A stretch of 64,000 nucleotides of DNA, taken from NCBI RefSeq assembly GCF_009932335.1, contig NZ_BLJF01000002.1:620001-684000 (forward strand), written 5' to 3'. Each line of letters opens with the position of its first letter. The stretch's first letter is position 1. The notes under the pieces are model-generated. The model was not told the DNA's origin. It was given only the letters and a program-made list of their open reading frames with translations, and made no database searches. The position numbers and the translations under genes were made by a program. Of the stretch, positions 49,317-64,000 are shown one piece after another. Source of the DNA: Pseudomonas asiatica. GTDB lineage: Bacteria; Pseudomonadota; Gammaproteobacteria; Pseudomonadales; Pseudomonadaceae.

Positions 49317-50328
49317 ACTACGCCGCCTGCGTGCCCTGCGCCTGGCCTGGGGCGTGGCGCTTTGCCTGGCGGTGAGTTTCGGCATCGGCTTGCCGGTACC
49401 GATCCTGGCGCCGGTGTTCGCGGTGTTGTTGCTGGCCATGCGCAGCCAGCCCTTGCCCCTGCGTGCGGCACCGGCCTTGGCGGGGCTGGTGCTGCTTGCC
49501 TGCGGCAGCGGGCTGCTGCTGATTCCGCTGCTGCGCCATGCCCCGGTAAGCGGGGTGTTGCTGGTGAGTGTGGGGGTTTTCCTTACCTTGCGTTATGCAC
49601 TGAAAGGCGGCAATGGCCTGTTGGCCAATTTGCTGGTTATCGGCCTGACCATGATCGCTGCCGCCGGCACCAGCGACTTCAGCCTGGCGCTGTCGGTGGT
49701 CGAAGCGCTGGCCAAAGGCATGCTGCTGGCGGTGCTGGGCACGGCAGCGGCGCATGTGCTGTTTCCCGAGCCGGCCGATGCGCCGGCGCAACCGGCACCG
49801 CCTCTGCTCGACAGTGACCAGGTGAGCTGGGTTGCCTTGCGTGCTACGTTGATCGTCATGCCGGCCTTCTTGCTGGCGCTGATCGCCCCGGACCAGTACA
49901 TGCCGCTGATCATGAAGGCAGTGAGCCTGGGGCAGCAGGCTGGTGAGACCCGCGCACGGCATGCCAGCCGCGAACTGATCGGCTCGACCTTGCTGGCCGG
50001 GTTGCTGGCGATATTGATGTGGGGCGCGTTGAGCCTGTTCGTGCACCTGTGGATGTTTTTCCTGTGGGTGCTGCTGTTCGTTCTCTGGCAGGGGCGCAGG
50101 CTCTACCGTGCGGTGGATACCAGGCAAAGCCCGGCGTACTGGGTGAGTTGCCTGACGACCATGCTGATCTTGCTGGGGCAGTCGGTGCAGGACAGCGCGG
50201 GCGGGCAGGATGTGTACCGCGCCTTTGCCGTACGCATGGCGCTGTTTCTGGCGGTGTCGGTGTATGCCAGTGCCATGCTGATCTGGATCGACCGGCTTCG
50301 GATGCGGCGTGGGCTTCTTCGCGGGTGA
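49306..50328 (+). CDS. DUF2955 inner-membrane protein of efflux system
   Basis: 340 residues with about ten membrane helices in two sets (PVPILAPVFAVLLLAM; LRATLIVMPAFLLALIAPDQYMPLIMKAVSLGQQ). DUF2955 proteins are AaeB/FUSC-like and occur with HlyD and OMF genes, as here, so it is likely the pump component for an aromatic or other toxic acid. Its stop codon lies in the following REP: the last residues (GLLRG) are encoded by it. Confidence 0.85.
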   Translation: MPIELRRLRALRLAWGVALCLAVSFGIGLPVPILAPVFAVLLLAMRSQPLPLRAAPALAGLVLLACGSGLLLIPLLRHAPVSGVLLVSVGVFLTLRYALKGGNGLLANLLVIGLTMIAAAGTSDFSLALSVVEALAKGMLLAVLGTAAAHVLFPEPADAPAQPAPPLLDSDQVSWVALRATLIVMPAFLLALIAPDQYMPLIMKAVSLGQQAGETRARHASRELIGSTLLAGLLAILMWGALSLFVHLWMFFLWVLLFVLWQGRRLYRAVDTRQSPAYWVSCLTTMLILLGQSVQDSAGGQDVYRAFAVRMALFLAVSVYASAMLIWIDRLRMRRGLLRG

Positions 50329-50408
50329 ACCCGCTCCCACAGGAATCGCGTTGCCCATGGGATCACGCAATTCTTGTGGGAGCGGGTTTACCCGCGAAGA
50401 GGCCAGCC
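50312..50408. repeat. REP pair overlapping the end of the DUF2955 gene
   Basis: GGCTTCTTCGCGGGTGAACCCGCTCCCAC and the inverse copy GTGGGAGCGGGTTTACCCGCGAAGAGGCC. The first copy contributes the last codons and the TGA of the DUF2955 gene. It lies in the convergent gap with the SulP gene. Confidence 0.9.
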
Positions 50409-50417
50409 CAGGAAAAC

Positions 50418-52130
50418 CTAGGGCTTCCAGTCAACCCCACTCTCTTCCAGGTAGGCATCCACCGCTGCCCCAACAGTGGGATGAAATGCCGACTCCCCCA
50501 TATGCTCGAACAACTCGAACTGCCGCATCTTGTCCTTTACCGGGTCCTTCATCTCGGCAAACTGCAACTCCACCCCCCGCGCCTCCAGCGCCCGGTCCAG
50601 TTCGGCCAGCATGTCCGCCGAGGTGATATCTATGCTGGTCACCGGCTCTGCCGCGATCACCAGCCGTTGTACCGAGGTAGGCGATGCATCCACCGCCGCC
50701 ATCACTGTGCTCTGGAACTGTTCGGCATTGGCAAAGAACAGCGGGGCATCCCAACGCAGCAGCACCAGCCCCGGAATGCGTCGGGCCTGTGGATAACGCT
50801 GCACATCATGGTAACCGCGGGTGCCATCCACCCGTCCCAGCACCGCATGATGCGGCCGCCAGCCGTCCCACAGGAATTCGATCACTGATATCGCCACGGC
50901 AATGCCGATACCGGGAATCGCCCCGAACACCGCCACACCGACGAAACAGGTGAACGACAGCCAGAATTCCCATTGCTGCATGCGGAAGATGCGCTTGAGG
51001 TCGGCGAACTCGAACAGGCCCAATGCTGCGGCAATCACCACTGCCGCCAGGGCGCTGTTGGGCAGGTGTTGCATCAGGTTGGGCGCCACCAGCAGCAACA
51101 GGGTCACCGCCAGCGCGCCGATGATGCCGGTGAGCTGGGTCTGCGAGCCGGCCGCTTCGGCCACGGGGGTGCGTGACGAGCTGCTGCTGATGGGGATGCC
51201 CTGGAACAGCCCCGAGGCCAGGTTGGCCACACCCAGGCCGAACATTTCCTGGTTGGGGTTGACCGGGGCCTTCATGCGCGCGGCGTATGAACGTGACAGC
51301 ACACTGGTATCGGCGAACGACACCAACGCTACTGCGATGCCGCCGAGCAGCACCTCCACCAGGTCGATACCGCTGACCCAGGGGAACACGAAGCTGGGTA
51401 GCCCCTGGGGCAGTTCGCCGAGCACTTTCACGCCTTGCTGGTCGAGCCCCAGCAGGCTCACCGCCAGCGTGGCCAGCACCACAGCAATGAGAATGCCCGG
51501 CAAACGCTTGAACGGCTTGAGCAGCAGGATCAGCGCCAGGCTACCGCCACCGACCACGAAGCTTGGCCAATGGCCATGGCCGGCGAGCAATGCCTGGATC
51601 AGGTTCCAGGTATCCCGCAGCGGGCCCTGGCTGTCGACCGACAGGCCGAACAGTTTGGGCAACTGGCTGATCAGCACCGTGAGGGCGATGCCGTTCATGT
51701 AGCCATAGCGGATCGGCTTGGACAGCAGTTCGGTGATGAAGCCCAGGCGCAGCAAACCGGCGATCACACAGAACGCCCCGGCGACCAGGGCCATCATGCT
51801 GGCGATGGCGATTGCCCGTTGCGGGTCGCTGGCGGCGTATTGCACCACCACTGCCAGTATCGGCGCGGCCAGCGCCGAGTCCGGGCCCAGCACCAGGATG
51901 CGGCTGGGGCCGAACAGGGCGTAGGCCAGCAGCGGGATGATGGTGGCGTACAGGCCGTAGATGCCAGGTACGCCGGAAGCTTCGGCATAAGCGATACCCA
52001 CCGGCACCAGCATGGTGGTGAGCACCAGGCCTGCGGCGATGTCTTTGGGCAGCCAGGCGGGTTGGTAGTGGAGCAGGGTGACCAGGCCGGGTAACCAGCG
52101 TTGCCAGTCGAGGCGGGTTTTTTCGGGCAT
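50418..52130 (-). CDS. SulP family anion transporter with STAS domain
   Basis: 570 residues from MPEKTRLDWQRWLPGLVTL. The membrane domain has 12-14 helices (DIAAGLVLTTMLVPVGIAYAEASGVPGIYGLYATIIPLLAYALFG; LASGLFQGIPISSSSSRTPVAEAAGSQTQLTG). The cytoplasmic STAS domain spans about 435-560 (VTSIDITSADMLAELDRALEARGVELQFAEMKDPVKD). It probably transports sulfate, bicarbonate or another anion. ATG 52130 is preferred over an upstream GTG at 52163. Confidence 0.9.
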   Translation of the reverse strand: MPEKTRLDWQRWLPGLVTLLHYQPAWLPKDIAAGLVLTTMLVPVGIAYAEASGVPGIYGLYATIIPLLAYALFGPSRILVLGPDSALAAPILAVVVQYAASDPQRAIAIASMMALVAGAFCVIAGLLRLGFITELLSKPIRYGYMNGIALTVLISQLPKLFGLSVDSQGPLRDTWNLIQALLAGHGHWPSFVVGGGSLALILLLKPFKRLPGILIAVVLATLAVSLLGLDQQGVKVLGELPQGLPSFVFPWVSGIDLVEVLLGGIAVALVSFADTSVLSRSYAARMKAPVNPNQEMFGLGVANLASGLFQGIPISSSSSRTPVAEAAGSQTQLTGIIGALAVTLLLLVAPNLMQHLPNSALAAVVIAAALGLFEFADLKRIFRMQQWEFWLSFTCFVGVAVFGAIPGIGIAVAISVIEFLWDGWRPHHAVLGRVDGTRGYHDVQRYPQARRIPGLVLLRWDAPLFFANAEQFQSTVMAAVDASPTSVQRLVIAAEPVTSIDITSADMLAELDRALEARGVELQFAEMKDPVKDKMRQFELFEHMGESAFHPTVGAAVDAYLEESGVDWKP

Positions 52131-52180
52131 GGTGCGTGCGTCCAGGGGAGGGTGCTGAATCACAGCTTAGATGCTGAATT

Positions 52181-52302
52181 CCGGGGCCGCTCTGCGGCCC
52201 ATCGCGACACAAGGCCGCTCCTACAGGGGAATGCGTTGGTTCAGGCGACGCGTTCCGTTGTAGGAGCGGCCTTGTGTCGCGAAAGGGCTGCAAAGCAGCC
52301 CC
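52181..52302. repeat. REP pair upstream of the SulP gene (last REP in the window)
   Basis: GGGGCCGCTCTGCGGCCC hairpin with ATCGCGACACAAGGCCGCTCCTAC, then the inverse TAGGAGCGGCCTTGTGTCGCGAAAGG and GGGCTGCAAAGCAGCCCC. I found no further REP between here and the right end. Confidence 0.88.
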
Positions 52303-52361
52303 TGATTTCAGCGGCGTTGCAAATATTGTTGGGGCTGCTCCTGAAGGGCGTGTGCATGATC

Positions 52362-52402
52362 AGAAAAAACAAAACCCCTTGAGGCGTTGGCCTCAAGGGG
52401 TT
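52362..52402 (-). terminator. Strong leftward intrinsic terminator
   Basis: Leftward: AACCCCTTGAGGC, loop CAAC, GCCTCAAGGGGTT, then TTGTTTTTTCTG. A perfect 13-bp stem and T-rich tail. The nearest upstream leftward gene (stop at 52633) is 230 bases away, so it may end that transcript or an unseen small RNA. Region 52403-52632 holds no gene that I can support. Confidence 0.85.
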
Positions 52403-52495
52403 CGTGGGTACTGCGGTCTGGCGCTTAGACGTTAAACCAAAAGTCATGGCGTACAATGCTTTATTTTTATGGGTTTATTGAAGGTCATGCTTTTT

Positions 52496-52517
52496 TATAC
52501 CCGGTTTTGTACCCGTA
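52496..52517. repeat. Short direct repeat TACCCG in AT-rich spacer
   Basis: TACCCG-GTTTTG-TACCCG: two 6-base copies with start-to-start distance of 12, inside a strongly AT-rich stretch (52440-52520). This could be a protein-binding site or part of an attachment region at the island edge. Confidence 0.35.
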
Positions 52518-52632
52518 TTTTATTTGGCCAGTGGCAGTGATTGTGAAACGCGTTTGTGAAGCAGTATCCACGCCCGGGGAGTGATGCTGGTGCTGTTGTG
52601 GGGCGTAGGTGTCGTTATGAGCAAAAAGGGTG

Positions 52633-53283
52633 CTACGCCTCGATCACCGGGTAGCAGGCGTCGCCCCATAGTGTTTCTGGGTTGTCCAGCATCAGCAGGA
52701 TGATCACCGGCACGAGCTTACTCAGTAGGTTGGAGCAGTCGCGCACCTGGTCACGGTTCACGCTGCTGTTCCAGGTCGCCCCTCCGTGCATCATTTGGTT
52801 GCGCAGCGTATAGATTCGGTTGAACACAACGCCGAGCACAGCCGCGGTATTGCGGCTGGCCAACGCCTGTTGCGCTACCCGACGGCCGTTCGCAAAACGT
52901 TCGGTCCACTGTTGTTCGCTGATCTTGCCGTTTTGGTTGTCCCAGAAACTCTGGAACACGTAGGGGTTGTCCAGCAACACGCGAATGCTGCCCGAGAATT
53001 CGGACCACACCAGGTTCTCGATCAGGTTGCCAGTGTCGAGTGAGCAGAGTTTGTCCAGGAAGGTTTTGAAGGTGGACTGCTCGGAAAGACGGTACTGCTC
53101 ATCGATGTCGGTGGCATAGGCCGAGTTGAAGGCAATCCACAGGAAGATGAAGCGCCCGTCGACATCGTCTGCCTGCTCGGCGCGGTTCAGCCAGCTCAAG
53201 GCGCGATGAACCCGCAAGGTGAGGTTGGGGTGATGACCTTCACGTTCCTGGCGGTGACGGGTCTTGAGTACTTGGTAGTCCAT
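52633..53283 (-). CDS. HEPN-domain protein (probable RNase-type)
   Basis: 216 residues, all-helical. The C-terminal half has the HEPN catalytic pattern R-x4-H as RNQMMHGG (Arg161, His166), preceded by GVVFNRIYTL, matching Apea-like/HEPN ribonucleases common in defence, toxin-antitoxin and abortive-infection loci. The middle (WLNRAEQADDVDGRFIFLWIAFNSAYATDIDEQYR) is typical of large stand-alone HEPN proteins. No paired nucleotidyltransferase antitoxin is adjacent. It is transcribed opposite to the following GTPase genes. Confidence 0.75.
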   Translation of the reverse strand: MDYQVLKTRHRQEREGHHPNLTLRVHRALSWLNRAEQADDVDGRFIFLWIAFNSAYATDIDEQYRLSEQSTFKTFLDKLCSLDTGNLIENLVWSEFSGSIRVLLDNPYVFQSFWDNQNGKISEQQWTERFANGRRVAQQALASRNTAAVLGVVFNRIYTLRNQMMHGGATWNSSVNRDQVRDCSNLLSKLVPVIILLMLDNPETLWGDACYPVIEA

Positions 53284-53655
53284 GGGGGGGCGATCCTCGG
53301 TGTCCTTGGCTGTCTGTAAATCAACAGTATATGTCTATAAAGTTTACGTATTGCTTCGGTGGCGTTGCGCAGAACGTGAAAAGCTTCTGCCTTGCGCATT
53401 GGAACCCGCTCCAATTGTTTACCTGTATGCACAGACAACGTGGACGCAGCGTGGCATTTTGCCTAGGGTATGGCCATTAGATATTGCCTGCAAGGCAGCC
53501 TGCATGACGCATGAAAGGCGCTCAGGCAATTGCGCAATCAGAGCAACTGATAGGTGCTGTCGCAGGTGCCACTGATGATCAGTCCATTAGCGGAGTGAGC
53601 GGTGATTTAAATCGCTTTGAAACGCTGAAGCCTTCCGCTCCAAAGAGATCGAGCC

Positions 53656-53775
53656 ATGAAGAATCTATTCGCAATTTTTGGCGTTATCGTCGTTGCCAAG
53701 ATGGGCTACGAGTTTGTCCGTGAGTACATGGCGATGAAAGAAGAGCTTGAGAAGCGGGCCGCCGAGTCGGCGTGA
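53656..53775 (+). CDS. Small single-pass membrane protein
   Basis: 39 residues: MKNLFAIFGVIVVAKMGYEF then a charged helix REYMAMKEELEKRAAESA. It is one short hydrophobic N-terminal segment plus an amphipathic cytoplasmic tail. AAGAGATCGAGCC before the ATG provides a weak RBS. The region 53284-53655 upstream holds no gene I can support. It may be the first gene of the rightward cluster. Function unknown. Confidence 0.55.
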   Translation: MKNLFAIFGVIVVAKMGYEFVREYMAMKEELEKRAAESA

Positions 53776-53821
53776 CTGTTCGCCCACGTCGTTTTTCAGC
53801 TACCCAAGGGTACTTGCTCCT

Positions 53822-54022
53822 ATGCCTATACCGCCTCGCCCGTCCACTTTCAGTTGCCCCAAATGCCACTGGCATGCCACGACGTTACCGGCCAGTGACG
53901 CGCTGTGCGAGGGGCGTGACTGGTTCTCGACCTGCCCTGCATGCCGGAACACCAACCTGGAGGTCAGGGCCGCCACGCAGTTGGAGATATTCAAGGCCAA
54001 ACTGTTTCGACCGTTCAGTTGA
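53822..54022 (+). CDS. Small zinc-ribbon protein
   Basis: 66 residues with two CxxC knuckles: FSCPKCHW (about 11-16) and STCPACRNTNLEV (about 38-43), a rubredoxin/zinc-ribbon layout. The rest is short and basic at the end (FKAKLFRPFS). Such proteins usually mediate protein or nucleic-acid contacts. It lies between two other tiny genes at 46 and 24 bases distance. Function unknown. Confidence 0.6.
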   Translation: MPIPPRPSTFSCPKCHWHATTLPASDALCEGRDWFSTCPACRNTNLEVRAATQLEIFKAKLFRPFS

Positions 54023-54046
54023 CGCCCTTCATTTCGGAGGTTCGCG

Positions 54047-54256
54047 GTGAGTGACGAGCAAGAACGAGGTGACCCGGATGCCATTCCCGCAGAGCCGGTT
54101 GCAGATGAAGACGCGCCGGAATACAGCGACGAGTTTGCCGCGATGATCCTGGCGCAAGAAGACAGCGACTTCGAAGAAATTGTTGCCGATGACCTGTTGG
54201 CATTGCTTGACCAGATGCTCGAAGAGGCCTGGAGTTTGGGGCATAGTCGGCAGTGA
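54047..54256 (+). CDS. Small acidic protein
   Basis: 69 residues from GTG 54047 with a good RBS (CGGAGG, 6-base spacing). It is very acidic: GDPDAIPAEPVADEDAPEYSDEFAAMILAQEDSDFEEIVADDLLALLDQMLEEAW. It may be a partner or inhibitor of a neighbouring protein, or a DNA mimic; this is inference from charge only. It precedes the first GTPase gene by 110 bases. Confidence 0.6.
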   Translation: MSDEQERGDPDAIPAEPVADEDAPEYSDEFAAMILAQEDSDFEEIVADDLLALLDQMLEEAWSLGHSRQ

Positions 54257-54366
54257 TTGTCGAAGGAAAGCAGCCCCCGCAAGTGAAGGCTAAAGATTAA
54301 TCCATCCAAACCGATAGCCTTTAATGCGCGACATTTCGCATACAGGCGCAGTGACGGAGAAAAACA

Positions 54367-55497
54367 ATGGCAAGTATGGAAACGCGATTCGAAGAGCAGT
54401 TCGACAATGAGATGGCCCAGGTTAAACGACCGAACCTCATGATCGTCGGTGGTACCGGGGTAGGTAAAAGCAGCCTGATCAACCACATCTTCGGCAAGAC
54501 TATCGCCCAGGTTGGCACCGGAAAGCCGATCACCCGTGGTTGTCACCGCTACGAAGACCCCAAAGTGCCGTTGGTTATCTTCGATACCGAGGGCTACGAG
54601 GTAACTGAAGGCAAAGCTTCGGCGGGCAACTTTCGGGAAAAAATCATCCCGGAAATCAAACAGCGGAAACACCAGGCGCTGAATGAGCAGATCCACCTCA
54701 TTTGGTACTGCCTGTCCGTCGCCAATCACCGCATCACGGATTTTGACGTGGACAACCTGCGCTTGCTCACTGGCGAACTGGATATTCCGGTGGCCGTGGT
54801 CCTTACCCAGTGCGATGCCGAGCCAATCGACGAGCAGGGTAACGGTGAGACCTCCCAGGCGTTTCGCAAAGTCCTGCGCGAAAACGGTGTGAACTGCGAG
54901 GTGTTCGAGACCTGTGCCAACAATCCCACCCTTGACCCAGAGCTGAAACTGGACCTTGAAAAGCTGATCACTTGGTCGAGTACATCGCTCAAGGATGATG
55001 CACTACGTCAGTCGTTTGTGGCTGCGCAGATTGCCTCGCTACCGGCCAAGCGTAGCGAAGCCATGAACATCATCATGACCTACAGCGCCACTACCGCTGC
55101 CAGTGCCGGGCTCAATCCGGTGCCGATGTCGGATGCGCTACTCATCGTGCCGCAGCAGATCGCCATGGCTGCCTCACTGGCCAAGCTCTATGGCTTCGAT
55201 TCGATGGGTGAAATCGCCGTCAGTATGCTAAAGGGGCAGATCCTGAGCTTGATTGGGCGCCAGCTGGCGGCCAGCCTGACCAAGTTCATCCCGGTGTTTG
55301 GGCAGGTCATAAACGCTGGTGTGGCGGGGGTAATCACCGGCGGACTGGGGTTGGCCCTGGTCGAGGTGTATGAACGCGCCATCGACGGTTACCTGAAAAC
55401 TGGCAAGTCGCCGGATTGGACAAAGCTGCTTTCCAGCGAGCTCTTCATGCAGGCTTTCAATGCCGGTATGTCAAAGTGGAAGGCCAACAAGGCCTGA
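54367..55497 (+). CDS. GTPase with C-terminal DUF697-like membrane domain
   Basis: 376 residues. G1 GGTGVGKS (28-35), a Thr in TGKPITRG as likely G2, G3 DTEG (73-76) and G4 TQCD (147-150). The C-terminal part (about 210-345) is hydrophobic and matches DUF697: NIIMTYSATTAASAGLNPVPMSDALLIVPQQIAMAASLAKLYG and FIPVFGQVINAGVAGVITGGLG. It is related to small Era/YfjP-like P-loop GTPases that attach to membranes. It is the first of five GTPases in 7.4 kb. Role unknown. Confidence 0.85.
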   Translation: MASMETRFEEQFDNEMAQVKRPNLMIVGGTGVGKSSLINHIFGKTIAQVGTGKPITRGCHRYEDPKVPLVIFDTEGYEVTEGKASAGNFREKIIPEIKQRKHQALNEQIHLIWYCLSVANHRITDFDVDNLRLLTGELDIPVAVVLTQCDAEPIDEQGNGETSQAFRKVLRENGVNCEVFETCANNPTLDPELKLDLEKLITWSSTSLKDDALRQSFVAAQIASLPAKRSEAMNIIMTYSATTAASAGLNPVPMSDALLIVPQQIAMAASLAKLYGFDSMGEIAVSMLKGQILSLIGRQLAASLTKFIPVFGQVINAGVAGVITGGLGLALVEVYERAIDGYLKTGKSPDWTKLLSSELFMQAFNAGMSKWKANKA

Positions 55498-55596
55498 TAC
55501 TTACTGGTGAACGCCGAAGGGTTTGGTGAGAGGCATCTCGTTACGCTTTCTCACCGCCTTTCCTTAGATGACAGCTGTTCAAGGTTTTGAAACGCC

Positions 55597-56727
55597 ATGG
55601 ATCAATTCGCGATCAACCTCATCGTGTTGGGCAAAAGCGGTGTAGGGAAAAGCAGCTTTTGCAACTATCTGTTCGACCAGCCCGGCCTGTTTGAAACCGG
55701 AAGTGGCAAGCCCGTTACCACCTGGGAAAAGAATTTCCAGTCCCACACGTTTGCCCACATGGGGCACCTCCTGAACGTGTTCGACAGCGTTGGGCTAGAG
55801 GCCGACAACTATGGGCGTTGGCTTGAGCAGTTCGACCGTTTCATGCAGCAACGGCGCGAACGTCCCATGGAGCCGGAAACCTGGATACATGGTGCTTTCT
55901 ATGTCATCAACGCCAGCTCGGCACGTCTGGAACCGGTTGATCTCAACCTGATCAAGCGTATTGGCCAGGATGCACGCATTCCCCTGCAAGTCATCCTGAC
56001 CAATGCCGATGTGGCGGGTGATAAAGTCGCAGCCTTGACGCGGGAAATTCACAAGCTGTGCCCGGGTGTATCGGTGACACCGCTGTGTTCGGTGTCGGTA
56101 CGCAAGCGCGGCGGCCAGTCGACGCAGGCCTTTGGCCGGGAAGAAGTGCTTTCACTGTACCTGGAGCAATCTCACGCCTTCCTGAGCAAGCGTCTGGCAG
56201 CAATGAGCTGCTTGAACTTCAAACGTGTGCTCATGGAAATGCGCAACACTGTGGTCAGCAAGATTGAAAAGGCGGATCTGAGCCTGTTCAAAATCGCTGA
56301 CCTCGATTTGGACAGAGAAATCGAGCTCCCCGACTTTGATGAAGTGTTTTCCGATTTACGAAGCTTCGATGACTACCTCTCGTCCTTTGGCTTCGTGGGT
56401 GACTGGGAGACCAGCGATGAGCTGGAAAGCGCAGTCACTCGAGTATTCGACGACTTCCAGAGCGAGATGGAAGGGCGTTTCAAAGAGATCGAAGACGGGT
56501 TTGAATCAGACAGTCTGATGCGCAAGGTGGGGGCACTGTTTGAGGCGGCAAAAATTATACTGACCCTGAAAGCGACCTTGATCGGCTGGCTCGATGAAGG
56601 CTTTGATCGGGTCAATCTCGAGCTCGACCGCTTGTTCGACAAGTATGCCGAGCAAGACAACTTCTTTGCCAGCTGCCTGGTTCCGTCTGGTCTGGTCGTC
56701 AAGTCGAAGCTGTTTGGTATTTTCTAA
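55597..56727 (+). CDS. GTPase-like protein, helical C-terminus
   Basis: 376 residues. G1 GKSGVGKSS (12-20), G3 as FDSVG rather than DTPG/DTEG (63-66), G4 TNAD (135-138). The P-loop is very close to the N-terminus, so the protein is a G domain followed by about 200 residues of helices (coiled-coil-like SELESAVTRVFDDFQSEMEGRFKEIEDGF). No membrane helix stands out except FEAAKIILTLKATLIGWLDEGF. It differs strongly in sequence from the GTPase before it. Confidence 0.82.
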   Translation: MDQFAINLIVLGKSGVGKSSFCNYLFDQPGLFETGSGKPVTTWEKNFQSHTFAHMGHLLNVFDSVGLEADNYGRWLEQFDRFMQQRRERPMEPETWIHGAFYVINASSARLEPVDLNLIKRIGQDARIPLQVILTNADVAGDKVAALTREIHKLCPGVSVTPLCSVSVRKRGGQSTQAFGREEVLSLYLEQSHAFLSKRLAAMSCLNFKRVLMEMRNTVVSKIEKADLSLFKIADLDLDREIELPDFDEVFSDLRSFDDYLSSFGFVGDWETSDELESAVTRVFDDFQSEMEGRFKEIEDGFESDSLMRKVGALFEAAKIILTLKATLIGWLDEGFDRVNLELDRLFDKYAEQDNFFASCLVPSGLVVKSKLFGIF

Positions 56728-56948
56728 TCCACGCGCTGGGTGCGATGTGTAAATTTATTGGTCATATAAGTTGGAGTGACAGGATCGGTCGCCGGGAAAG
56801 TCTGCTTAAACCCGGCGCCTGAAGCACTGATCCCTACTAAAAGTTGACCTGTATATCTGCACACCCGTGGAACCTTTGCGCACGCTCGCTTACTGTTCGC
56901 TCACCCGCAGTGGCAAGTTGCTATTGTCCTGTGGGTTGAGGAGTAAGC

Positions 56949-57017
56949 ATGCCGAAAGGAGCACAGCCCTGCGCGTATCACTGCCCCATGTGCGCAAACA
57001 CGCTTGATCGAGCGTAG
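56949..57017 (+). CDS. Possible 22-residue peptide or gene remnant in the 56728-57162 gap
   Basis: MPKGAQPCAYHCPMCANTLD.. with stop after 22 codons. It has a strong RBS (GAGGAG, spacing 5) and a CxxxCPMC cluster, which suggests the start of a decayed zinc-binding protein or a genuine micro-peptide. The rest of the 435-base gap holds a CGCCGGG/CCCGGCG inverted repeat (56790-56817) and nothing else I can support. Confidence 0.3.
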   Translation: MPKGAQPCAYHCPMCANTLDRA

Positions 57018-57162
57018 ACCGCCGACAACCTTGGAGCGTGCTTGATCAGGCTGTTTCCTGCACGCCGACGTTAGATGTGCAAGTCCGACAATGCAGCGTT
57101 GGGCGAGTACCTTGGTACGGCCAGTGTTGGCATAATGACATCATTCAGGGAGAGGAGTGGAT

Positions 57163-57975
57163 ATGGGTTTCGAAGCAATCAACGCGGTGCTGCCCGATCA
57201 GACTGATCAGATCAACCGTTTGCAATACCTATTGGCCGAAGCGCGACTGCCGGTGGTGTCCGTGATCGGCAAGTACAACCATGGCAAGAGCTCCTTGCTC
57301 AACGCATTGGTCGAGTGCGAGCAATTTGCTGTGTCCGATGCCCGGGAAACGACGGCGCTAAGCGACTTCGAGTATCAGGGCGTGCGGTGGTTGGACACCC
57401 CCGGACTGGATGCCGACGTTGCCCGCAACGATGATCAAGCGGCGATGACTGGCGCTTGGCAGCAATCGGATATCCGCCTGTTTGTGCACTGTGTGCGAGA
57501 GGGCGAACTCGACCAGAGCGAATGCGACATGATCGATACCTTGCAGCAGGACGCGCTCAAGAGTGGGCGTCAGACCTTGATTGTACTGACCCAGATCGAG
57601 CAGGTCGAAGAGCAGACCTTGGCGAATGTTCAGGCGCTGATGAAGCAGCAAGCACCGAAGTTGCCAATCATTCCGGTGTCTGCCCATCGTTATCGTCAAG
57701 GCCTGGAGAGCGCAAGCGCGCTGAAAATCAAAAAAAGCGGCATCAACGAGCTGCGCCAGGCTGTGCAATCAGCACTGGCTTATGTCGAGCAAACGCGTAA
57801 GGACGAAGTGCTGGCGCTGGGGGAAAGCCTGGAAGGCCTGATCGATCAGGGGCTGACCAACTTGCAGGCGCGACTTTTACATCAGCAGGCCAAACGGCAA
57901 GCGCTGCTGGCAAATTTTGTCACCGAGTACCAAAACCTGCACAGCAAGCTCCATAAACAACTCAATAAGGCCTGA
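57163..57975 (+). CDS. Single-domain GTPase with HGKSS P-loop
   Basis: 270 residues from MGFEAINAVLPDQ. G1 GKYNHGKSS (36-44), G2 Thr in RETTAL (61-66), G3 DTPG (78-81), G4 TQIE (143-146, Glu in place of Asp) and G5-like PVSAHR. The C-terminus is a helical tail with a coiled-coil-like end (LLHQQAKRQALLANFVTEYQNLHSKLHKQLNKA). ATG 57163 is favoured over GTG 57157 because AGGAG (57153-57157) would overlap the latter. It is followed after 3 bases by the polyserine protein, so they are coupled. Confidence 0.85.
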   Translation: MGFEAINAVLPDQTDQINRLQYLLAEARLPVVSVIGKYNHGKSSLLNALVECEQFAVSDARETTALSDFEYQGVRWLDTPGLDADVARNDDQAAMTGAWQQSDIRLFVHCVREGELDQSECDMIDTLQQDALKSGRQTLIVLTQIEQVEEQTLANVQALMKQQAPKLPIIPVSAHRYRQGLESASALKIKKSGINELRQAVQSALAYVEQTRKDEVLALGESLEGLIDQGLTNLQARLLHQQAKRQALLANFVTEYQNLHSKLHKQLNKA

Positions 57976-57978
57976 GCC

Positions 57979-58392
57979 ATGCTTCCTTTTATCTTGTTAG
58001 CCGGTGCAGCCGTCGCGGCAGTCGCAGCGGCGGTATCCAGCAGTTCGGACTCCTCGTCGTCATCGTCTTCTTCGGGGTCTTCTCGCGACTACGAGCGAGA
58101 AGCTGCTGAGAAGGCACGCAACGCCAAACTTCAAGCCAACAAAGAAGCGGCCGAGCGCCAACTGAAGGCCTTCCTCCAGGGGCATGGCATTGAAGTTGAT
58201 ACGAAGCAGCTTCAAGGGCTGGTTCAGACAATGGTCAGCCAACCGACAAAATTTCCCACTGAGTCGCTGAAAAAAGCGTTCTTGCGTAATGCACCCGTAC
58301 GCGAGATTGATGGAGAAATCAAAGTACTGGAGCGGCATATCGCCGAGAGGAACGAAGCCAAGACGTTTCTCAATAGCCTGCCAATAGGCTGA
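57979..58392 (+). CDS. Membrane-anchored polyserine-linker protein
   Basis: 137 residues. An N-terminal hydrophobic segment (MLPFILLAGAAVAAVAAAV) is followed by a serine-rich linker (residues 20-35, about 14 Ser) and a charged coiled-coil region (DYEREAAEKARNAKLQANKEAAERQLKAFLQ), then a small helical domain. The leader could be a membrane anchor or a signal peptide. It starts 3 bases after the GTPase at 57163 and precedes the dynamin-like pair, and may tether a GTPase to the membrane. Function unknown. Confidence 0.75.
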   Translation: MLPFILLAGAAVAAVAAAVSSSSDSSSSSSSSGSSRDYEREAAEKARNAKLQANKEAAERQLKAFLQGHGIEVDTKQLQGLVQTMVSQPTKFPTESLKKAFLRNAPVREIDGEIKVLERHIAERNEAKTFLNSLPIG

Positions 58393-58490
58393 TTGCTCGA
58401 TTGCCACCGGTTTGAAGCGGGGCAGTAGTCACACTGTTTTTGACGATGAGTTCGCTGCCTGGGGCAGCCTGAACCAGCACAGGATCGTGT

Positions 58491-60200
58491 ATGCAGGAAA
58501 AAGCATTTATCGAGGCGCTCAAAGGGTTCGAGTATTTGACCCAGCGGGTGGAAGCCGACGAAAGCAAACTGAAGCATTGGCAATCTCATCTGACCCGCGC
58601 GTTGAGCGCCCAGCCCTCGCTGGGCAAGTTGAACCGTGACGGTCACCTGGCGCGCCAGGCCGAAGGTGTACGCGAAGTTGTGCGGTTGTGCATCGAGGAC
58701 TGGGGACGCACCTGGGCGCGTAATCAGCCTTCGGCACAGCTTGCCGAAACGTTTGGCGACAAAGCCGTGATCCTGGTGTTTGGCAAGGTCAATGCCGGTA
58801 AGAGTTCGTTCTGCAACTTTGTCGCCGAACGCTTCGCTGCCAATGGAGAGGCGGTGCAGTACTTTCATCTGGCCGACAACGCGATCGTCGAGCGCGATGA
58901 GCCCTTTGCCGAAGGTGAGACAGAAACCACCTCGCAGATCCAGGGCATCCGCCTGGGGCAAAAGCTGATTCTCATCGACACACCCGGATTGCTTTCGGTG
59001 ACAGGTGTGAATGGTGAACTGACCAAGCGTTACACCGACAGCGCCGATGCGGTGCTGTGGTTGAGCAGTTCCACTGCGCCAGGTCAGGTGCAGGAGTTGG
59101 CTGAGCTGGAGGGGGAACTCAAGCGCAATAAACCCCTGCTGCCGATCATCACCAAAAGTGACTTTTACAACGAGGATGAGGTTCCCGGGCAGGACACGCT
59201 AATCAAGGTGCTGTGCAACAAGACGACGGCCAATCGTTCACTGCAGGAAGGCGATGTGTGGAAACGTGCTGCACAACAGCTGCGCGCGTCTGACCTCGAT
59301 GAGGCGCTGCTTAAACCTGTGGTGTCTGTGTCGGTCCGGTATGCCCGTAAGAACGCAGAGCAGGACGATTGCCTGCAGGCGGCTGGTTTTGAGCGGTTGT
59401 TCGCTCAGTTGCAGGTGATTGCCCAGGAGGCCCGCGTTTACAAGGAAAGCAAAGCCACGCAGCTCATGGTTAGCCACCTTGAGAACAACGTGCTGAGCAG
59501 TTTGCGCAGTACCGTGCTGCCCAGGCTGGACGAACTGCGAGACGCCACTCGCAAGGCGGTTCAGGGCCTCAAGGTACGTAGCGATCAGATCGCTTCGGCG
59601 GTGCTTGCCGATGTGCTGCTCAAACTCGCTGACCTGCTGGAAACGCACAAGTCCACGCAAGATGTTCAAGCGCTGACCAAGGATGTCAATGCGCTGTGCC
59701 AGAGCACCATCGAGCATTACCTGACGCGTGAGTTGAAAGACTACGTCAGCGAGCTCAAAGGTGTGCTGGTCGACATGTCCAGTGATGACGTCGGCAGTTT
59801 CGAAGACCTGGGTGTTGATGTCGAGTTGGTTACCGGGCGAGGTAAGCAAGCGGCGGCGACAGCCACTGGCACGGCGATCGGTACCGCAATCGGCACTGCG
59901 TTCGGCGGGCCGATTGGTGCAATCGCTGGCGGGCTTCTGGGTGGGCTGCTCGGTGGCGCTGCCGGTAACTACATGGTCGAAACGCAGATGGTCCGGCAAG
60001 TGGTCGGGGTCAGCTATGCACGCTTGCATGGCAAGCTCGAAGCCGACTTGCGCGCGCGTTTGCCCAAGGCCGTTGGCGCTGCGGTAGATACCTGCATCGA
60101 GTCGATCGACCTGGTGGACGTCGAGGCCATGCGCCTGTTCGACATCATTGCGAGCAGTGAGCAGGATCTGAAATGTTTGAAGGAGAGCGTTGCCCGATGA
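58491..60200 (+). CDS. Dynamin-like GTPase with glycine-zipper membrane segment
   Basis: 569 residues. Helical N-terminus (1-90), then a G domain: G1 GKVNAGKSS (98-106), Thr in TETTSQI (about 145-148, G2), G3 DTPG (163-166), G4 TKSD (221-224). A long helical region (310-445) follows, with a glycine zipper at about 460-492 (TGTAIGTAIGTAFGGPIGA, then GGLLGGLLGGAAG), likely membrane-inserting. This layout, G domain / stalk / membrane element, is that of bacterial dynamin-like proteins. It overlaps the next GTPase gene by ATGA. Confidence 0.85.
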   Translation: MQEKAFIEALKGFEYLTQRVEADESKLKHWQSHLTRALSAQPSLGKLNRDGHLARQAEGVREVVRLCIEDWGRTWARNQPSAQLAETFGDKAVILVFGKVNAGKSSFCNFVAERFAANGEAVQYFHLADNAIVERDEPFAEGETETTSQIQGIRLGQKLILIDTPGLLSVTGVNGELTKRYTDSADAVLWLSSSTAPGQVQELAELEGELKRNKPLLPIITKSDFYNEDEVPGQDTLIKVLCNKTTANRSLQEGDVWKRAAQQLRASDLDEALLKPVVSVSVRYARKNAEQDDCLQAAGFERLFAQLQVIAQEARVYKESKATQLMVSHLENNVLSSLRSTVLPRLDELRDATRKAVQGLKVRSDQIASAVLADVLLKLADLLETHKSTQDVQALTKDVNALCQSTIEHYLTRELKDYVSELKGVLVDMSSDDVGSFEDLGVDVELVTGRGKQAAATATGTAIGTAIGTAFGGPIGAIAGGLLGGLLGGAAGNYMVETQMVRQVVGVSYARLHGKLEADLRARLPKAVGAAVDTCIESIDLVDVEAMRLFDIIASSEQDLKCLKESVAR

Positions 60201-61738
60201 ACCCCTTTGAGCAGTACAAAACGCTGATTGCCAGTTCCTGTAGCATCGCTTCGCGCTACCTGCCGGATGCGCCTGCGCGTATCGATCAGCTGATCGAACA
60301 GATTGACGAGCGCAAAGTGCACGTCATGTTGTTCGGTGCCTACAACGCTGGCAAAAGCACGCTGATCAATGCCTTGCTGGGTGAAGAGCGTGCGGTGGTG
60401 GGTGATATTCCCACCACCGACACCGTGCATCACTTCGATTGGGACGGGCATGTGTTGCTCGACACACCGGGGATCAACGCGCCGATTGAGCATGACGAAA
60501 TCAGCACTGAGCAACTGAAGCGCGCCAACTTGATTCTGTTCGTTCTGCGCCAGGAAGATCAGGATGCGCAGAACATCGTTGAACGTATTTTCACGCTGCT
60601 CTCCCAGCGCCGTCAGTTGTTCATCGTGCTCAATTATGAAGACAGCGACCCTGCTGTCATCGAGCGGATTCAGGCCAGCTTCTCGCGCACCTTGCTCAAC
60701 TATGCGCGAACCCATGCTCTGGATGAGGCATGGGTCGAACAGTTGCCGGTGATTCTGATGAACGTCAGGTCGGCCAGTCGCGGACGCCTTGAGGGCAAAG
60801 CGAAGCTGCTTGAGCATTCGGGTTACGACGTCTTCATCGCTCGGTTCAAACAGTGGCTGCAGCGCTTTGATGGCGAAGAGCAGTTGCTTGAGCAAACCTG
60901 CACGATGATTGAGCGGGCACTGCTCACGCCGGTCTCCGTTCAACTTGAACGCGAAATGCCCCCGGCACAGCAATTGGGCGCGATCGATGCACAGTTGGAG
61001 CACATGGCACGTCAGCAGCAACAGCTGAAAAACAGCGCCAGGCATCTGGTGCGTCGCGAGATTCTGGCAGCACGGCTGACGATCGAGCGTGCCCTTGATC
61101 AGAGTGGTGACTCTGCTTCGCTGACGCGAGCGCTGGAAGTTCTGGCCCAGGGCATTGCCGAGAAGCTGCAGCAATGGCTCGAAAGCGAACTGCAGATGAT
61201 GCGCAAAGCGCAGATCGACGACTTGCTGCTCGATGCCGGGGTAGATCCCAAGCTCTACGCTAATGCCGAAGAAAGCGAGCTGCTGGACAAGTTGTCCGGG
61301 CCAGTATTCGCCCAGCTCAAAGGTATCAACCAGGATCACCTGACTTCGCTGCTTGTTCTGGGGCGCAAGCTGAAGATTCCACTGTTGAAAGGCCGTTGGC
61401 TGTCGACATTGCAAAAGTGGGCGGGACGCGCGGCGCCTGTGGTGCAGCTGGTGTTTGCGGTTGCAGAAATTTTTCTGGCGGCGCGCAGCGAAGAAAAAGA
61501 GAACGAGCGCAATCATAGCCGTGCCCTCCAGCGTATCCAATGGATCGAAGAGACCGGTGCCGAGTTGGAAAATGCCCTGGTTCAGAGTGCCGGCGAGTTG
61601 ATTGACCAGCTCTTCATTGATCAGAGAAAACCGTATGAGCAGAGCCTAGTGGCCCTGCAAAGCGCTGCCAGCCAGCTTGAGAAAGACTGCAGTGACTGGC
61701 GCGAGTTGACACGTACCTTGCGGGCGGTGGAGTTCTGA
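60197..61738 (+). CDS. Dynamin-like GTPase, partner of the preceding gene
   Basis: 513 residues from MNPFEQYKTLIASS. G1 GAYNAGKST (47-55), G2 Thr in IPTTDT (71-76), G3 DTPG (89-92), G4 weakened to NYED (146-149). C-terminal stalk-like helices and a hydrophobic patch (AGRAAPVVQLVFAVAEIFLAA). It is coupled to the previous gene by ATGA, with AAGGAG upstream. Such two-gene dynamin pairs are known in bacteria (for example LeoB/LeoC of the Eleos defence system), but family membership here is inferred from layout only. Confidence 0.85.
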   Translation: MNPFEQYKTLIASSCSIASRYLPDAPARIDQLIEQIDERKVHVMLFGAYNAGKSTLINALLGEERAVVGDIPTTDTVHHFDWDGHVLLDTPGINAPIEHDEISTEQLKRANLILFVLRQEDQDAQNIVERIFTLLSQRRQLFIVLNYEDSDPAVIERIQASFSRTLLNYARTHALDEAWVEQLPVILMNVRSASRGRLEGKAKLLEHSGYDVFIARFKQWLQRFDGEEQLLEQTCTMIERALLTPVSVQLEREMPPAQQLGAIDAQLEHMARQQQQLKNSARHLVRREILAARLTIERALDQSGDSASLTRALEVLAQGIAEKLQQWLESELQMMRKAQIDDLLLDAGVDPKLYANAEESELLDKLSGPVFAQLKGINQDHLTSLLVLGRKLKIPLLKGRWLSTLQKWAGRAAPVVQLVFAVAEIFLAARSEEKENERNHSRALQRIQWIEETGAELENALVQSAGELIDQLFIDQRKPYEQSLVALQSAASQLEKDCSDWRELTRTLRAVEF

Positions 61739-61837
61739 ATGCGGGCGGCGGGTGCATAGTGCCGCCAGCCCCTGTGTTTTTTGGTGCGGCCGCGTGTACT
61801 GGGCGGCTGTAGTGCCTCGGCAAAGGAATGATGCTGT

Positions 61838-62557
61838 ATGAATCAAATGTTCGTAAGCCCATGGTTGTCGGTCTCGCCCAACGGCCCGGTGACCTGTGCG
61901 CATCCTCACGCGCACGACTACGTCCACCTGCGCCAAGGGGAAATGGACGGCGCCTGTGGTCCTTATTGTGTCGTGATGATCTTGATTGCACTGGGTGTCA
62001 TGTCCCGAGACCAGGCGCGATCACTCGACAGTTTCGATGGTCGCACGCGCCTTGGCCGCTTTCGCGAAAACTTGATGGCCTTTGGTGCCTTGGTTACAGA
62101 AGGTACCGACGACTTTGATGTGAGCTGGCTGGTGGATGTGTTCAAGCATGCGGGTGTCGTGACCACAGTGCTTGATGTCGCCCCACGACGTAAAACAACC
62201 ATTCGCAACATTGCAGATGCTGTCGATAACCGAAAAATCCCGATCGTGGGTGTCGAATGGGACTGCGGGCAAGCGGGGCATTGGCTGCTGGTTATCGGCT
62301 ATCAGGGGTATAAGGCGAATGATGACGATGAGTTGCAGATCACTCATTTGCTGTGCCTGGACCCCACCAGTGATGCGCCGCGGGTATCACTTTGGAATGC
62401 CGTGATCGAAGTATTCACCGAAGAGGGCGAGGCGGTTAACGAAGGTCGTTATTACTGTCGGCATTGGGGGGTGAATGACGCGCCGACGGCCTGTCGAATT
62501 GACCAGAGTGTTGTGGTCGGTCTCGATAAAAAGGCTGAATCCAATTACTTCTACTGA
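61838..62557 (+). CDS. C39-like papain-fold cysteine peptidase
   Basis: 239 residues. Catalytic Cys40 in QGEMDGACGPYCVVMIL (Q33 as the oxyanion residue), His148 in GHWLLVIGY and Asp175 in LLCLDPT give the Gln/Cys/His/Asp set of C39-like peptidases. No membrane or ABC domain, so it is a stand-alone soluble protease rather than a bacteriocin exporter. It may cleave one of the neighbouring proteins. AAAGGAATGATGCTGT precedes the ATG. Confidence 0.75.
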   Translation: MNQMFVSPWLSVSPNGPVTCAHPHAHDYVHLRQGEMDGACGPYCVVMILIALGVMSRDQARSLDSFDGRTRLGRFRENLMAFGALVTEGTDDFDVSWLVDVFKHAGVVTTVLDVAPRRKTTIRNIADAVDNRKIPIVGVEWDCGQAGHWLLVIGYQGYKANDDDELQITHLLCLDPTSDAPRVSLWNAVIEVFTEEGEAVNEGRYYCRHWGVNDAPTACRIDQSVVVGLDKKAESNYFY

Positions 62558-62633
62558 AAGAGCAGGCAGTGGCCGGTCTTGAGGGCCGGCCCTGACGCTT
62601 TCCAGTTGCTAGACAAGGCAGTCAATAATCCAC

Positions 62634-63194
62634 ATGAAGCACCTCTTCGTTACCATCGAAGGCATCGACGGCGCCGGTAAATCAACCGTTGTACGCATGC
62701 TCGCAAATCGCCTTGGCGCCGTGTGCATCAAAACACCAGACGAGCGATTTTCAACTGAGCGCCAGCGTATTGAGCGCCAGGGAAGCACGGAAGAAAAATA
62801 CGCTTTCTATCTGCACTCGCTGGAAGCACAACAGGTTGAAATTAACGCATTGCTGGAGAGAGGGCCGGTTATTTGTGATCGGTATATTCACTCCACCATC
62901 GCTTACCAGTGGCCTGAGGCAAAGCCGCTACCTGTCGATATCGCTGAATGCTTTCCCTCGCTGGCCCGGCCCGATCACTCAATTTTGCTGACAGTGAGCA
63001 GCGAAGTTTCCCGTGAGCGCATTGCTCGGCGAGAGCATCAAACCGGCGTTGTTTCCCCTACCGACCATAACCTCACCTTGTTGGACAAAGCCCGTCGACG
63101 CTTTCTTGCCATGCAGGACCTTGTCCAGGTCGATACCAGCGACAGAACGCCAGAACAGGTGTGCGATCTCATTTTGTCAGGGCTTGTGCTATGA
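62634..63194 (+). CDS. dTMP-kinase-like nucleotide kinase
   Basis: 186 residues. P-loop GIDGAGKST (10-18), DRY-type motif VICDRYIHSTIAYQ and a LID-like RERIARREHQTGVVSP. The pattern is thymidylate kinase, although about 25 residues shorter than housekeeping Tmk (which it is unlikely to replace). It overlaps the next gene by ATGA. No clear RBS is seen before its ATG. It probably phosphorylates a nucleotide in the service of the neighbouring enzyme. Confidence 0.82.
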   Translation: MKHLFVTIEGIDGAGKSTVVRMLANRLGAVCIKTPDERFSTERQRIERQGSTEEKYAFYLHSLEAQQVEINALLERGPVICDRYIHSTIAYQWPEAKPLPVDIAECFPSLARPDHSILLTVSSEVSRERIARREHQTGVVSPTDHNLTLLDKARRRFLAMQDLVQVDTSDRTPEQVCDLILSGLVL

Positions 63195-64000
63195 ACCGGC
63201 TTAGCCTTGCACGGATTATCAGCGTCGCGCAGTGGTGGAAGGAAAACGCCGGGCTGATGCAAGTGGAGGTGGCGGCACTTGAGCCACTGCTCTGGCGTGA
63301 AGGTAACGTGCGTGTTGGCCATGTGGTAGCAAAGCTGAAAGCGATGGGCTTTCGTGTGTCGATGACCAGCAACGGCAGCTTGCTTGCACGGCAGGCGCAA
63401 GAGCTCAAAGAGGCGGGTCTGGACCTTTTGCGGTTGAGCTGGCACTCCATGTCGCCAGATATCTATCGCAGGGTAACGGGAGGCGGAAACCTTGAGAAGC
63501 TGATCGAGGGCATCCGGGCCGGGATTGATTGTTCCTTACCGATGTCACTGAACAGGGTGTTGATGAGGGGGCATACCACGGACCTCCCCGATCAGCTGGC
63601 ATTTATTGACCAACACCAGTTGAGACTGAAATTACTGGACCTGTACTGGACAGAAGAGTCAGCGGCTGAGTACGACCGGTACTACATTACTCCGGAGGAA
63701 GCGCTTGAGGAGTCAGTAGCGTCAGGCTATTTGAAACTGATTCAGGATGATGGCCAGCAACGCGGCCGTTCCAGGGTCAGGTACCTGACACCCCGCCAAG
63801 GACTGGTCGAATACAAGCTGAAATCGACTGCCAGAAAAAGCAACGATGTGTGCGATTTGTGCACAAAAAAATCGAACTGCCTTGAGGGCTATGGGGACTA
63901 CTTCAGGGTGTTCCCGGAAGGGAAGTCGTCGTTGTGCTATTTGCGCCAGGACCTGGCGTATAGCACTTATGAAAATGACACATTTGTCATCGCTGAACAG
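63191..64000 (+). CDS. MoaA-like radical-SAM-fold protein lacking the N-terminal CxxxCxxC (runs off window)
   Basis: 270 residues visible, frame still open at the edge. The core matches MoaA: EPLLW (31-35, equivalent of the GGEPL element), TSNGSLLARQAQELKEAGLD, RLSWHSMSPDIYRRVTGGGNLEKLIEGI, LNRVLMRG. The C-terminal Cys set CDLCTKKSNC...LCYL (221, 224, 230, 249) resembles the MoaA auxiliary-cluster motif. The radical-SAM CxxxCxxC, which should precede EPLLW by about 50 residues, is absent: only 30 residues precede it, and the ATGA overlap with the kinase gene fixes the start. Confidence 0.75.
   Translation, partial: MNRLSLARIISVAQWWKENAGLMQVEVAALEPLLWREGNVRVGHVVAKLKAMGFRVSMTSNGSLLARQAQELKEAGLDLLRLSWHSMSPDIYRRVTGGGNLEKLIEGIRAGIDCSLPMSLNRVLMRGHTTDLPDQLAFIDQHQLRLKLLDLYWTEESAAEYDRYYITPEEALEESVASGYLKLIQDDGQQRGRSRVRYLTPRQGLVEYKLKSTARKSNDVCDLCTKKSNCLEGYGDYFRVFPEGKSSLCYLRQDLAYSTYENDTFVIAEQ

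Follow-up and report, generated by a model that had tools for sequence, protein, structure and literature searches.

Five GTPase genes of Pseudomonas asiatica look like two separable modules, one of them a conserved four-gene cassette related to dynamins

Gene content of the GTPase locus

A cluster of GTPase genes in Pseudomonas asiatica was examined in a stretch of 64,000 nucleotides (i.e. the window; positions 620001-684000 of contig C2, NZ_BLJF01000002.1) from a genome of 5.97 Mb. As proposed in a first-pass annotation made from the sequence alone, five intact P-loop GTPases and a polyserine protein are encoded here (Table 1), and the G1 motifs of the five GTPases all differ (GGTGVGKS in g1, GKSGVGKS in g2, GKYNHGKS in g3, GKVNAGKS in g5 and GAYNAGKS in g6). 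These GTPases look like two separable, repeatedly associating modules: a septin-like unit (i.e. g1, g2 and g7; module 1) and, nested inside it, a dynamin cassette (i.e. g3 to g6, termed A, B, C and D; module 2). A recent tandem duplication had been discounted by the annotation, correctly, as the paralogues are old; its description of the GTPases as unrelated was too strong because g1 and g2 are paralogous (27% identity, 8e-13) and A resembles D (29.5% identity, 2.6e-12).

The locus was compared to its copy in P. akapageensis (i.e. L022; L103 has the same coordinates and was handled as the same contig). All ten genes, g1 to g10, were free of stop codons in this comparison and exhibited ratios of nonsynonymous to synonymous substitution (dN/dS) of 0.05-0.16, indicating that these are real genes. 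The order of g7 to g10 is kept in L022 and the conserved block thus extends beyond position 61738. The start of D is more likely the ATGA at 60197, matching L022, than 60173, and gives a 4-bp overlap with the stop of C. Other intergenic spacings were 99 bp (g1-g2), 429 bp (g2-g3), 3 bp (g3-g4) and 98 bp (g4-g5); the tight coupling initially ascribed to the whole cluster is seen at two of the five junctions (g3-g4 and g5-g6) and is absent from the other three. As compared to the 48-bp g2-g3 gap of L022, the gap in the window (56728-57156) contains ~340 bp of extra sequence. An Rfam scan of 50000-64000, including this extra sequence, returned nothing at gathering score, and within 53200-62700 fewer promoter and terminator sites were detected than in shuffled sequence on average. 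A drop in guanine-plus-cytosine content from ~65% to 55%, starting ~52 kb into the window, is consistent with a genomic island carrying both GTPase modules. The contig ends 2.3 kb beyond the window, 4.5 kb downstream of D.

The profile searches advocated by the first-pass annotation placed A, C and D with dynamins and Leo proteins and g1 and g2 with septin-type GTPases, leaving g7 without a match. Against the Dynamin_N cut-off of 27, scores of 39.2, 38.5 and 53.3 were obtained for A, C and D, respectively; MMR_HSR1 scored 44.5 in A and was also passed by C and D. Best PADLOC matches of all three proteins were to LeoA or LeoBC. Whereas A matched LeoA for an N-terminal part (2.2e-18), D matched it over nearly the whole length (3.9e-35), with residues 31-516 (counted from 60173) aligned to positions 39-554 of 559 in the profile; whole-length LeoA matches were likewise observed for the D proteins of L008, L014 and L115. 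C matched LeoBC (2.5e-14) in two stretches, the best covering residues 50-207 only. In the PDB, the best match of the C profile was a bacterial dynamin-like protein (DLP; 2j68, 1.4e-9), which we take to be from Nostoc, and chain 5owv, presumably Cj-DLP1, was matched too. The D profile also matched 5owv (1.2e-13) and, in its C-terminal half, LeoA (4aur, 1.3e-8). The glycine-zipper score of C (22.3) was under the cut-off of 25, and the G4 position T-x-S-D, searched as a crude pattern, was kept by C in 17 of 20 rows. B exhibited a hydropathy of 2.4 over residues 1-24 and a run of 8 serines.

Of the module 1 proteins, g1 scored 36.1 bits for MMR_HSR1 and 29.4 bits for DUF697 (cut-off 27.7), confirming the DUF697 membrane domain predicted for one of the GTPases; its hydrophobic region spans residues 305-336. 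The Septin score of g1 (25.2) was just under the Pfam cut-off of 26.2, and its best PDB profile matches were septin chains (1.9e-7), with GIMAP4 matched too. Both g2 (36.4) and its homologues (39.4 and 35.8) exceeded the Septin cut-off, g2 also matched MMR_HSR1, and septins made up all 23 entries that phmmer matched in the PDB at E≤0.1; the Septin match in g2 and its homologues stops at residue 128-152. Motifs DGACGPY, GHWL and LCLDP were invariant in all five aligned rows of g7. These motifs prompt a tentative comparison with C39 or papain-like peptidases; in profile searches g7 exceeded no Pfam cut-off and had neither an NCBIfam nor a peptidase match, its best PDB E-value being 0.96. A g2 homologue adjoins g7 in L137 and L138. 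Pairwise dN/dS values of g1, g2 and g7 among the window, L022 and genomes G200 and G300 were 0.04-0.11, the closest pair (i.e. L022 and G300) giving 0.05, 0.11 and 0.11, respectively.

Table 1. Genes of the GTPase locus and neighbouring genes in the window
Gene	Position	Strand	Length (aa)	Module	Features
g1	54367..55497	+	376	1	septin/AIG1-like GTPase, C-terminal DUF697 membrane domain
g2	55597..56727	+	376	1	septin-like GTPase, g1 paralogue
g3 (A)	57157..57975	+	272	2	small GTPase, without hydrophobic segment
g4 (B)	57979..58392	+	137	2	hydrophobic N-terminus, Ser-rich linker, charged tail
g5 (C)	58491..60200	+	569	2	dynamin-like, Gly-rich hydrophobic stretch ~449-498
g6 (D)	60197..61738	+	513	2	LeoA-like dynamin
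g7	61838..62557	+	239	1	accompanies g1-g2
g8	62634..63194	+			thymidylate-kinase-like; neighbour kept in L022
g9	63191..64000, continues beyond the window	+			MoaA-like radical SAM protein; neighbour kept in L022
HEPN-like gene	52633..53283	-			weak resemblance; recurrent ABCD neighbour

Distribution of the cassette and its association with module 1

A profile of C matched 12 of 398 Pseudomonas genomes, in all of which the cassette was complete and in the order A-B-C-D. The same complete order was observed in two other genera of the family, in a Klebsiella plasmid and in a Photobacterium plasmid. Sixteen loci were compared (i.e. 12 from Pseudomonas, two from other genomes of the family, and in addition L008 and L009), with flanks fetched for ten of the Pseudomonas and both other family genomes and with L022 and the window serving for the remaining two. 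The comparison excluded L010 of Acetobacter, which contains C-D only, the broken locus L125 and the benzoate/catechol pairs described below. L119 and L120 are two of the 16 loci and should count as one event because their gene lengths and scores are identical throughout; B and C of L124 were missed by the automatic gene map and recovered in later comparisons. At all 16 loci A and B were present, C and D overlapped by 4-53 bp, and the N-terminus of B was hydrophobic (weakly in L009). A run of at least 5 serines was found in B at 12 loci (i.e. not L117, L119, L120 and L124). C contained 10-20 glycines per 50 residues around its hydrophobic segment, and D also held a hydrophobic segment. Of the multi-GTPase membrane machine proposed for the whole cluster, a membrane-linked set of GTPase genes is thus supported for g3 to g6 by gene order, C-D overlap and the LeoA and LeoBC matches, and an obligate machine of five GTPases is not supported.

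The distribution of ABCD is patchy and includes carriage on plasmids. In a class-wide sample the C profile matched one of 369 genomes, the window's own, and a single-protein search of 198 family genomes gave three matches including this genome. A tblastn search of plasmids detected A in 37 records, C in 37 and D in 34. C and D occurred together in 29 records of Klebsiella, Raoultella and Citrobacter; among the matches listed (30), A had the same counts for these genera, and both of the records read (2/29) had the order A-B-C-D. In Photobacterium toruni, the cassette is located within a CRISPR (clustered regularly interspaced short palindromic repeats) region with csm6 and RAMP genes. Searches of viral contigs with the D profile gave seven matches, all weak (2e-10 at best) and all lacking a C-type open reading frame (ORF), and querying these contigs with C, g1 and g7 gave no confirmed match; a phage search detected no C and two partial matches of g1. 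A D-profile scan of genome contigs revealed, among the matches listed (80 loci), only L022 with a C-type ORF or three family matches. Two megablast searches that detect near relatives only, one of plasmids with positions 52300-64000 and one of an Escherichia coli genome collection with the Klebsiella cassette, gave no match. The genome of the window also contains a second, broken ABCD-type locus of another subtype on contig C1 (L125, 3845-8215), which retains a complete D and the C-terminal 256 aa of C, has neither A nor B and is followed by YkgJ- and DUF3944-type genes.

Association of the modules was examined with a g1 profile, which matched 10 of the 398 Pseudomonas genomes. Six of these also carry C, and in all six the g1-type and C-type genes occupy one gene run as compared to 0.3 expected. 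Co-occurrence was significant (Fisher P = 3.5e-8; 6.9e-7 without the window's own genome) and remained so (P = 0.005) with the six genomes collapsed to two and the others unchanged. In the window and L022, g1-g2, ABCD and g7 are intact together, with ABCD inside the g1-g2-g7 unit. The other four genomes have the order ABCD-YkgJ-g1, in which g1 follows a Cys-cluster (i.e. YkgJ-type) gene and g2 is lacking; a g7 homologue is located ~4 kb upstream in one locus of this type, L115. Overall, g1 shares a gene run with dynamin-type genes in seven of the 10 g1-positive genomes, in three arrangements.

Each module also occurs without the other. No g1 match at E≤1e-8 was found in eight other ABCD genomes (8/14), and the g1 profile gave no match in the Klebsiella plasmid record and one weak match in Photobacterium. 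Homologues of g1 were detected in 68 plasmid records and, among the matches listed (25), in none of the 37 C-bearing records. Both G200 and G300 have an intact g1-g2-g7 unit and lack ABCD. In the g2-g7 gap of G300, a stretch of 193 bp corresponds to the beginning of g3 and, no more than ~8 bp further on, sequence from the end of g6 takes over, indicating loss of ABCD by deletion; no such scar was detected in the gap of G200. G486 contains g1-type genes, and the 16 kb retrieved around every one of them gave no match to A-D. The first-pass annotation had named independent occurrence of the genes in other genomes as the observation that would speak against one system, and this was found in part: g1-type GTPases are co-located with ABCD above chance, yet the eight ABCD genomes without g1 and the g1-g2-g7 or g1 genes without ABCD (i.e. 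G200, G300 and G486) indicate two modules and not one obligate machine.

Two further GTPase arrangements were observed. In the Photobacterium plasmid (L009, 1262-3007), two adjacent GTPase genes lie ~4.4 kb upstream of ABCD, so that this locus also totals five GTPases; as a g1-g2 counterpart the pair was rejected, because its members share 47% identity and their resemblance to g1 is weak (1e-11 and 3e-7). In G497 (L141, 7533-14832), two dynamins lie downstream of a g1-like GTPase: one is fused to a patatin phospholipase (1236 aa, with a glycine zipper under threshold), so that the pair includes a lipase of its own, and the other carries Sel1 repeats.

Neighbouring genes and relatives in catabolic operons

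WYL-domain genes are rare, with one to four per genome and 20 in total in the 10 of 14 ABCD genomes searched (i.e. all except G299, G393, G505 and G048). Eight of the nine genomes other than the window's own contain a WYL gene within ~3 kb of ABCD, the exception being G426; the chance of a WYL gene that near is <0.01 per locus, as estimated from 20 genes in ~62 Mb. Among the fetched flanks, WYL genes were present at 10 of the 16 loci, and the window's own genome has one ~7.5 kb from the broken second copy. In L115-L120, L122 and L137-L139 a WYL regulator is divergent from a small membrane-coil gene, and the two flank varied cargo; these sites are likely a defence hotspot.

Other repeated neighbours of ABCD encode ADP-ribosylglycohydrolase, WYL/WCX, DUF3944 and YkgJ-type proteins (Pfam, one member each) and a nuclease-helicase-like protein (named by eye). 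CRISPR genes occur near ABCD in L009, integrases in L115 and L118 (named by eye) and two paired genes of restriction type in L122 (read by eye). The HEPN-like gene of the window matched HEPN with 13.0 bits, far under the cut-off of 28.4; its homologues are present at L115, L119, L120 and L121, with a WYL gene adjoining in the first three. This company suggests that of defence islands. Downstream of g7, g8 scored 71.5 bits for Thymidylate_kin and matched PADLOC PDC-M51B (2.6e-26), and g9 scored 50.8 bits for Radical_SAM, its L022 copy being 89% identical and stop-free with a dN/dS of 0.08. The start of g9 was set at the ATG overlapping the g8 stop, the ORF list having a GTG at 63161. MoaA-like g9 proteins (63191-64000 in the window; L004, 162-1181; L022, 8645-9664) have no N-terminal CxxxCxxC and have RCNFNCGFPD near the C-terminus, and g9, beside a thymidylate-kinase-like gene, is possibly a permuted radical SAM enzyme.

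Pairs of A and C relatives (i.e. A'-C) without B and D were found beside benzoate/catechol genes. Dynamin-like GTPase pairs of this kind occur amid such genes of Burkholderiales and Acinetobacter (L005, L006, L007 and L012): next to ben genes in Diaphorobacter, next to ben-type genes in unannotated Caballeronia DNA (read by eye), and between catA and catM in Acinetobacter plasmids, of which four were detected and two inspected. Except for L022, the window's A is closest to these A' proteins (39-41%), and a FastTree tree clusters its C with the ben/cat C proteins. Two GTPase genes of the CatM/BenM regulon of Bordetella petrii are homologous to Acinetobacter baylyi genes in an operon with catA, and the term dynamin does not occur in the available text of that report (PMC6449761). 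Either a membrane-protective biochemistry is common to the cassette and the catabolic pair, or one of the two arose by recruitment of the other.

Interpretation and comparison with known systems

The reading to which we incline, by a narrow preference, is that ABCD forms a heterotypic dynamin system of Leo/Eleos type, enlarged by two subunits, which may act at the inner membrane in defence against phage or envelope stress. This reading is based on the conserved ABCD order and C-D overlap, the Dynamin_N, LeoA and LeoBC matches, the WYL context, the patchy distribution with carriage on plasmids, the low dN/dS values and the DLP precedents discussed below. The bacterial membrane is probably where both modules work, under stress or when phages attack. 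B would anchor the complex on the inner membrane, where C and D could co-assemble like the Campylobacter DLP pair, with the glycine-rich stretch of C and the hydrophobic segment of D inserting into the bilayer. As a G domain without a trunk, A may be a GTP-dependent partner or switch. The trigger would be membrane damage from phage or stress, a WYL regulator releasing expression where present, and assembly would tether or remodel the membrane such that lysis is delayed or the infected cell is ended. Module 1, a septin-like GTPase pair and a partner, perhaps adds a sensing or membrane layer.

Several observations weigh against this interpretation. The LeoBC match of C spans just part of the protein, and the strongest PDB matches of the D profile are ordinary Der-type G domains (1.1e-21). 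The G4 motif is variable in A and D and some members may therefore not hydrolyse GTP. AlphaFold models of C and g7, each from a two-row alignment, had very low mean predicted local distance difference test scores (39.3 and 33.5, respectively) and thus supply no fold evidence. No WYL gene was found near L008, L009, L123, L124, L022 (a short contig) or the window's intact locus, close to its contig end. A and C have homologues in benzoate/catechol operons, a setting that does not readily suggest a part in phage defence. No functional work on the ABCD family was found in the literature searched; nor was the four-gene cassette described there, a weak negative as the search covered titles and the starts of abstracts and covered subscription papers and preprints poorly.

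The catabolic relatives raise a serious but less likely alternative, in which the chief task of ABCD is membrane repair or the response to envelope stress and not phage defence. In this case an A+C pair for aromatic stress would have acquired B and D, or would have shed both in the catabolic operons, and mobile elements would carry it. The A'-C pairs by ben/cat genes in three genera, the GTPase genes in the CatM/BenM regulon and catA operons (PMC6449761, in part) and the closeness of the window's A and C to these proteins all fit such an origin, but no catabolic genes were recognised beside the 16 ABCD loci and WYL genes flank 10 of them. That the modules are unrelated cargo of a common insertion hotspot, their adjacency reflecting the hotspot only, appears distinctly unlikely: the WYL and divergent membrane-coil genes do flank ABCD, g1-g2-g7, g1 alone and ADP-ribosylglycohydrolase, but g1 shares a run with dynamin-type genes in seven of 10 g1-positive genomes in three arrangements, and ABCD sits inside the g1-g2-g7 unit and not just alongside. 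One obligate five-GTPase complex of g1 to g6 is very improbable, for despite the intact loci of the window and L022 (with g2 and g3 just 48 bp apart in the latter), the second arrangement ABCD-YkgJ-g1 in four genomes and the scar of a former ABCD in G300, eight other ABCD genomes lack a g1 match at E≤1e-8 and g1-g2-g7 is open and constrained without ABCD in G200 and G300.

Returning to the Leo/Eleos-like reading, a four-gene dynamin form with its own anchor and a trunk-less G protein offers defined parts for studying recruitment and switching of heterotypic dynamins, and, with A/C relatives in catechol operons and the full cassette flanked by WYL genes, a single gene set allows a direct test between repair of membranes and defence against phage. 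The recurrent association with GTPases of DUF697/septin type is a hint that GTPase responses of bacteria may be layered. A rather speculative extension is a two-layer defence machine of membrane-anchored ABCD and septin-like g1-g2 with a cysteine-protease-like g7, in which the septin layer would sense or corral damage and the dynamin layer would seal or destroy; if true, this would be a bacterial parallel to eukaryotic septin/GBP/IRG immunity.

Among known GTPases, septin/AIG1 (i.e. paraseptin) proteins resemble module 1, with g2 over the Septin cut-off and g1 matching septins and GIMAP4. In contrast to septins, the match is limited to the G domain, g1 has DUF697, and the proteins are bacterial and known here from sequence alone. 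In the GTPase pair of the CatM/BenM catechol operons, A and C have direct homologues (local alignments give 39-48% identity), but A' has an extra C-terminal domain and no B, D or g1-g2-g7 was found alongside. Bacillus DynA is likewise a dynamin that is protective at the membrane during phage infection and delays phage lysis (PMC8844932, in part); it differs as a single protein of two fused DLPs without a four-gene operon (PMC6104087, in part). Most of the dynamins known from bacteria come in tandem pairs, and the Campylobacter Cj-DLP1/DLP2 pair, which tethers membranes, is likewise a heterotypic tandem pair, with 5owv matched by both C and D profiles; the available text of the same paper (PMC6104087) reports no A or B counterpart and a beta-lactamase-like neighbour instead of WYL genes.

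LeoABC of enterotoxigenic E. coli (ETEC) and Eleos likewise contain two tandem-encoded dynamin-like proteins, D matching the LeoA profile nearly full length and C matching LeoBC in part. Eleos consists of LeoA and LeoBC only, i.e. two genes, LeoBC possibly being split. A glycine-rich paddle, noted for LeoA (PMC4159319, in part), is a further likeness. Unlike LeoABC, C is not split and D falls outside the curated LeoA/HP0731 family (NF041922), with a score of 37.6 bits where 325 is the cut-off. The composition also differs from LeoA and LeoBC alone at 16 of 16 loci, the ABCD cassette adding a conserved A, a G domain without a trunk, and a conserved B, a membrane anchor with a linker.

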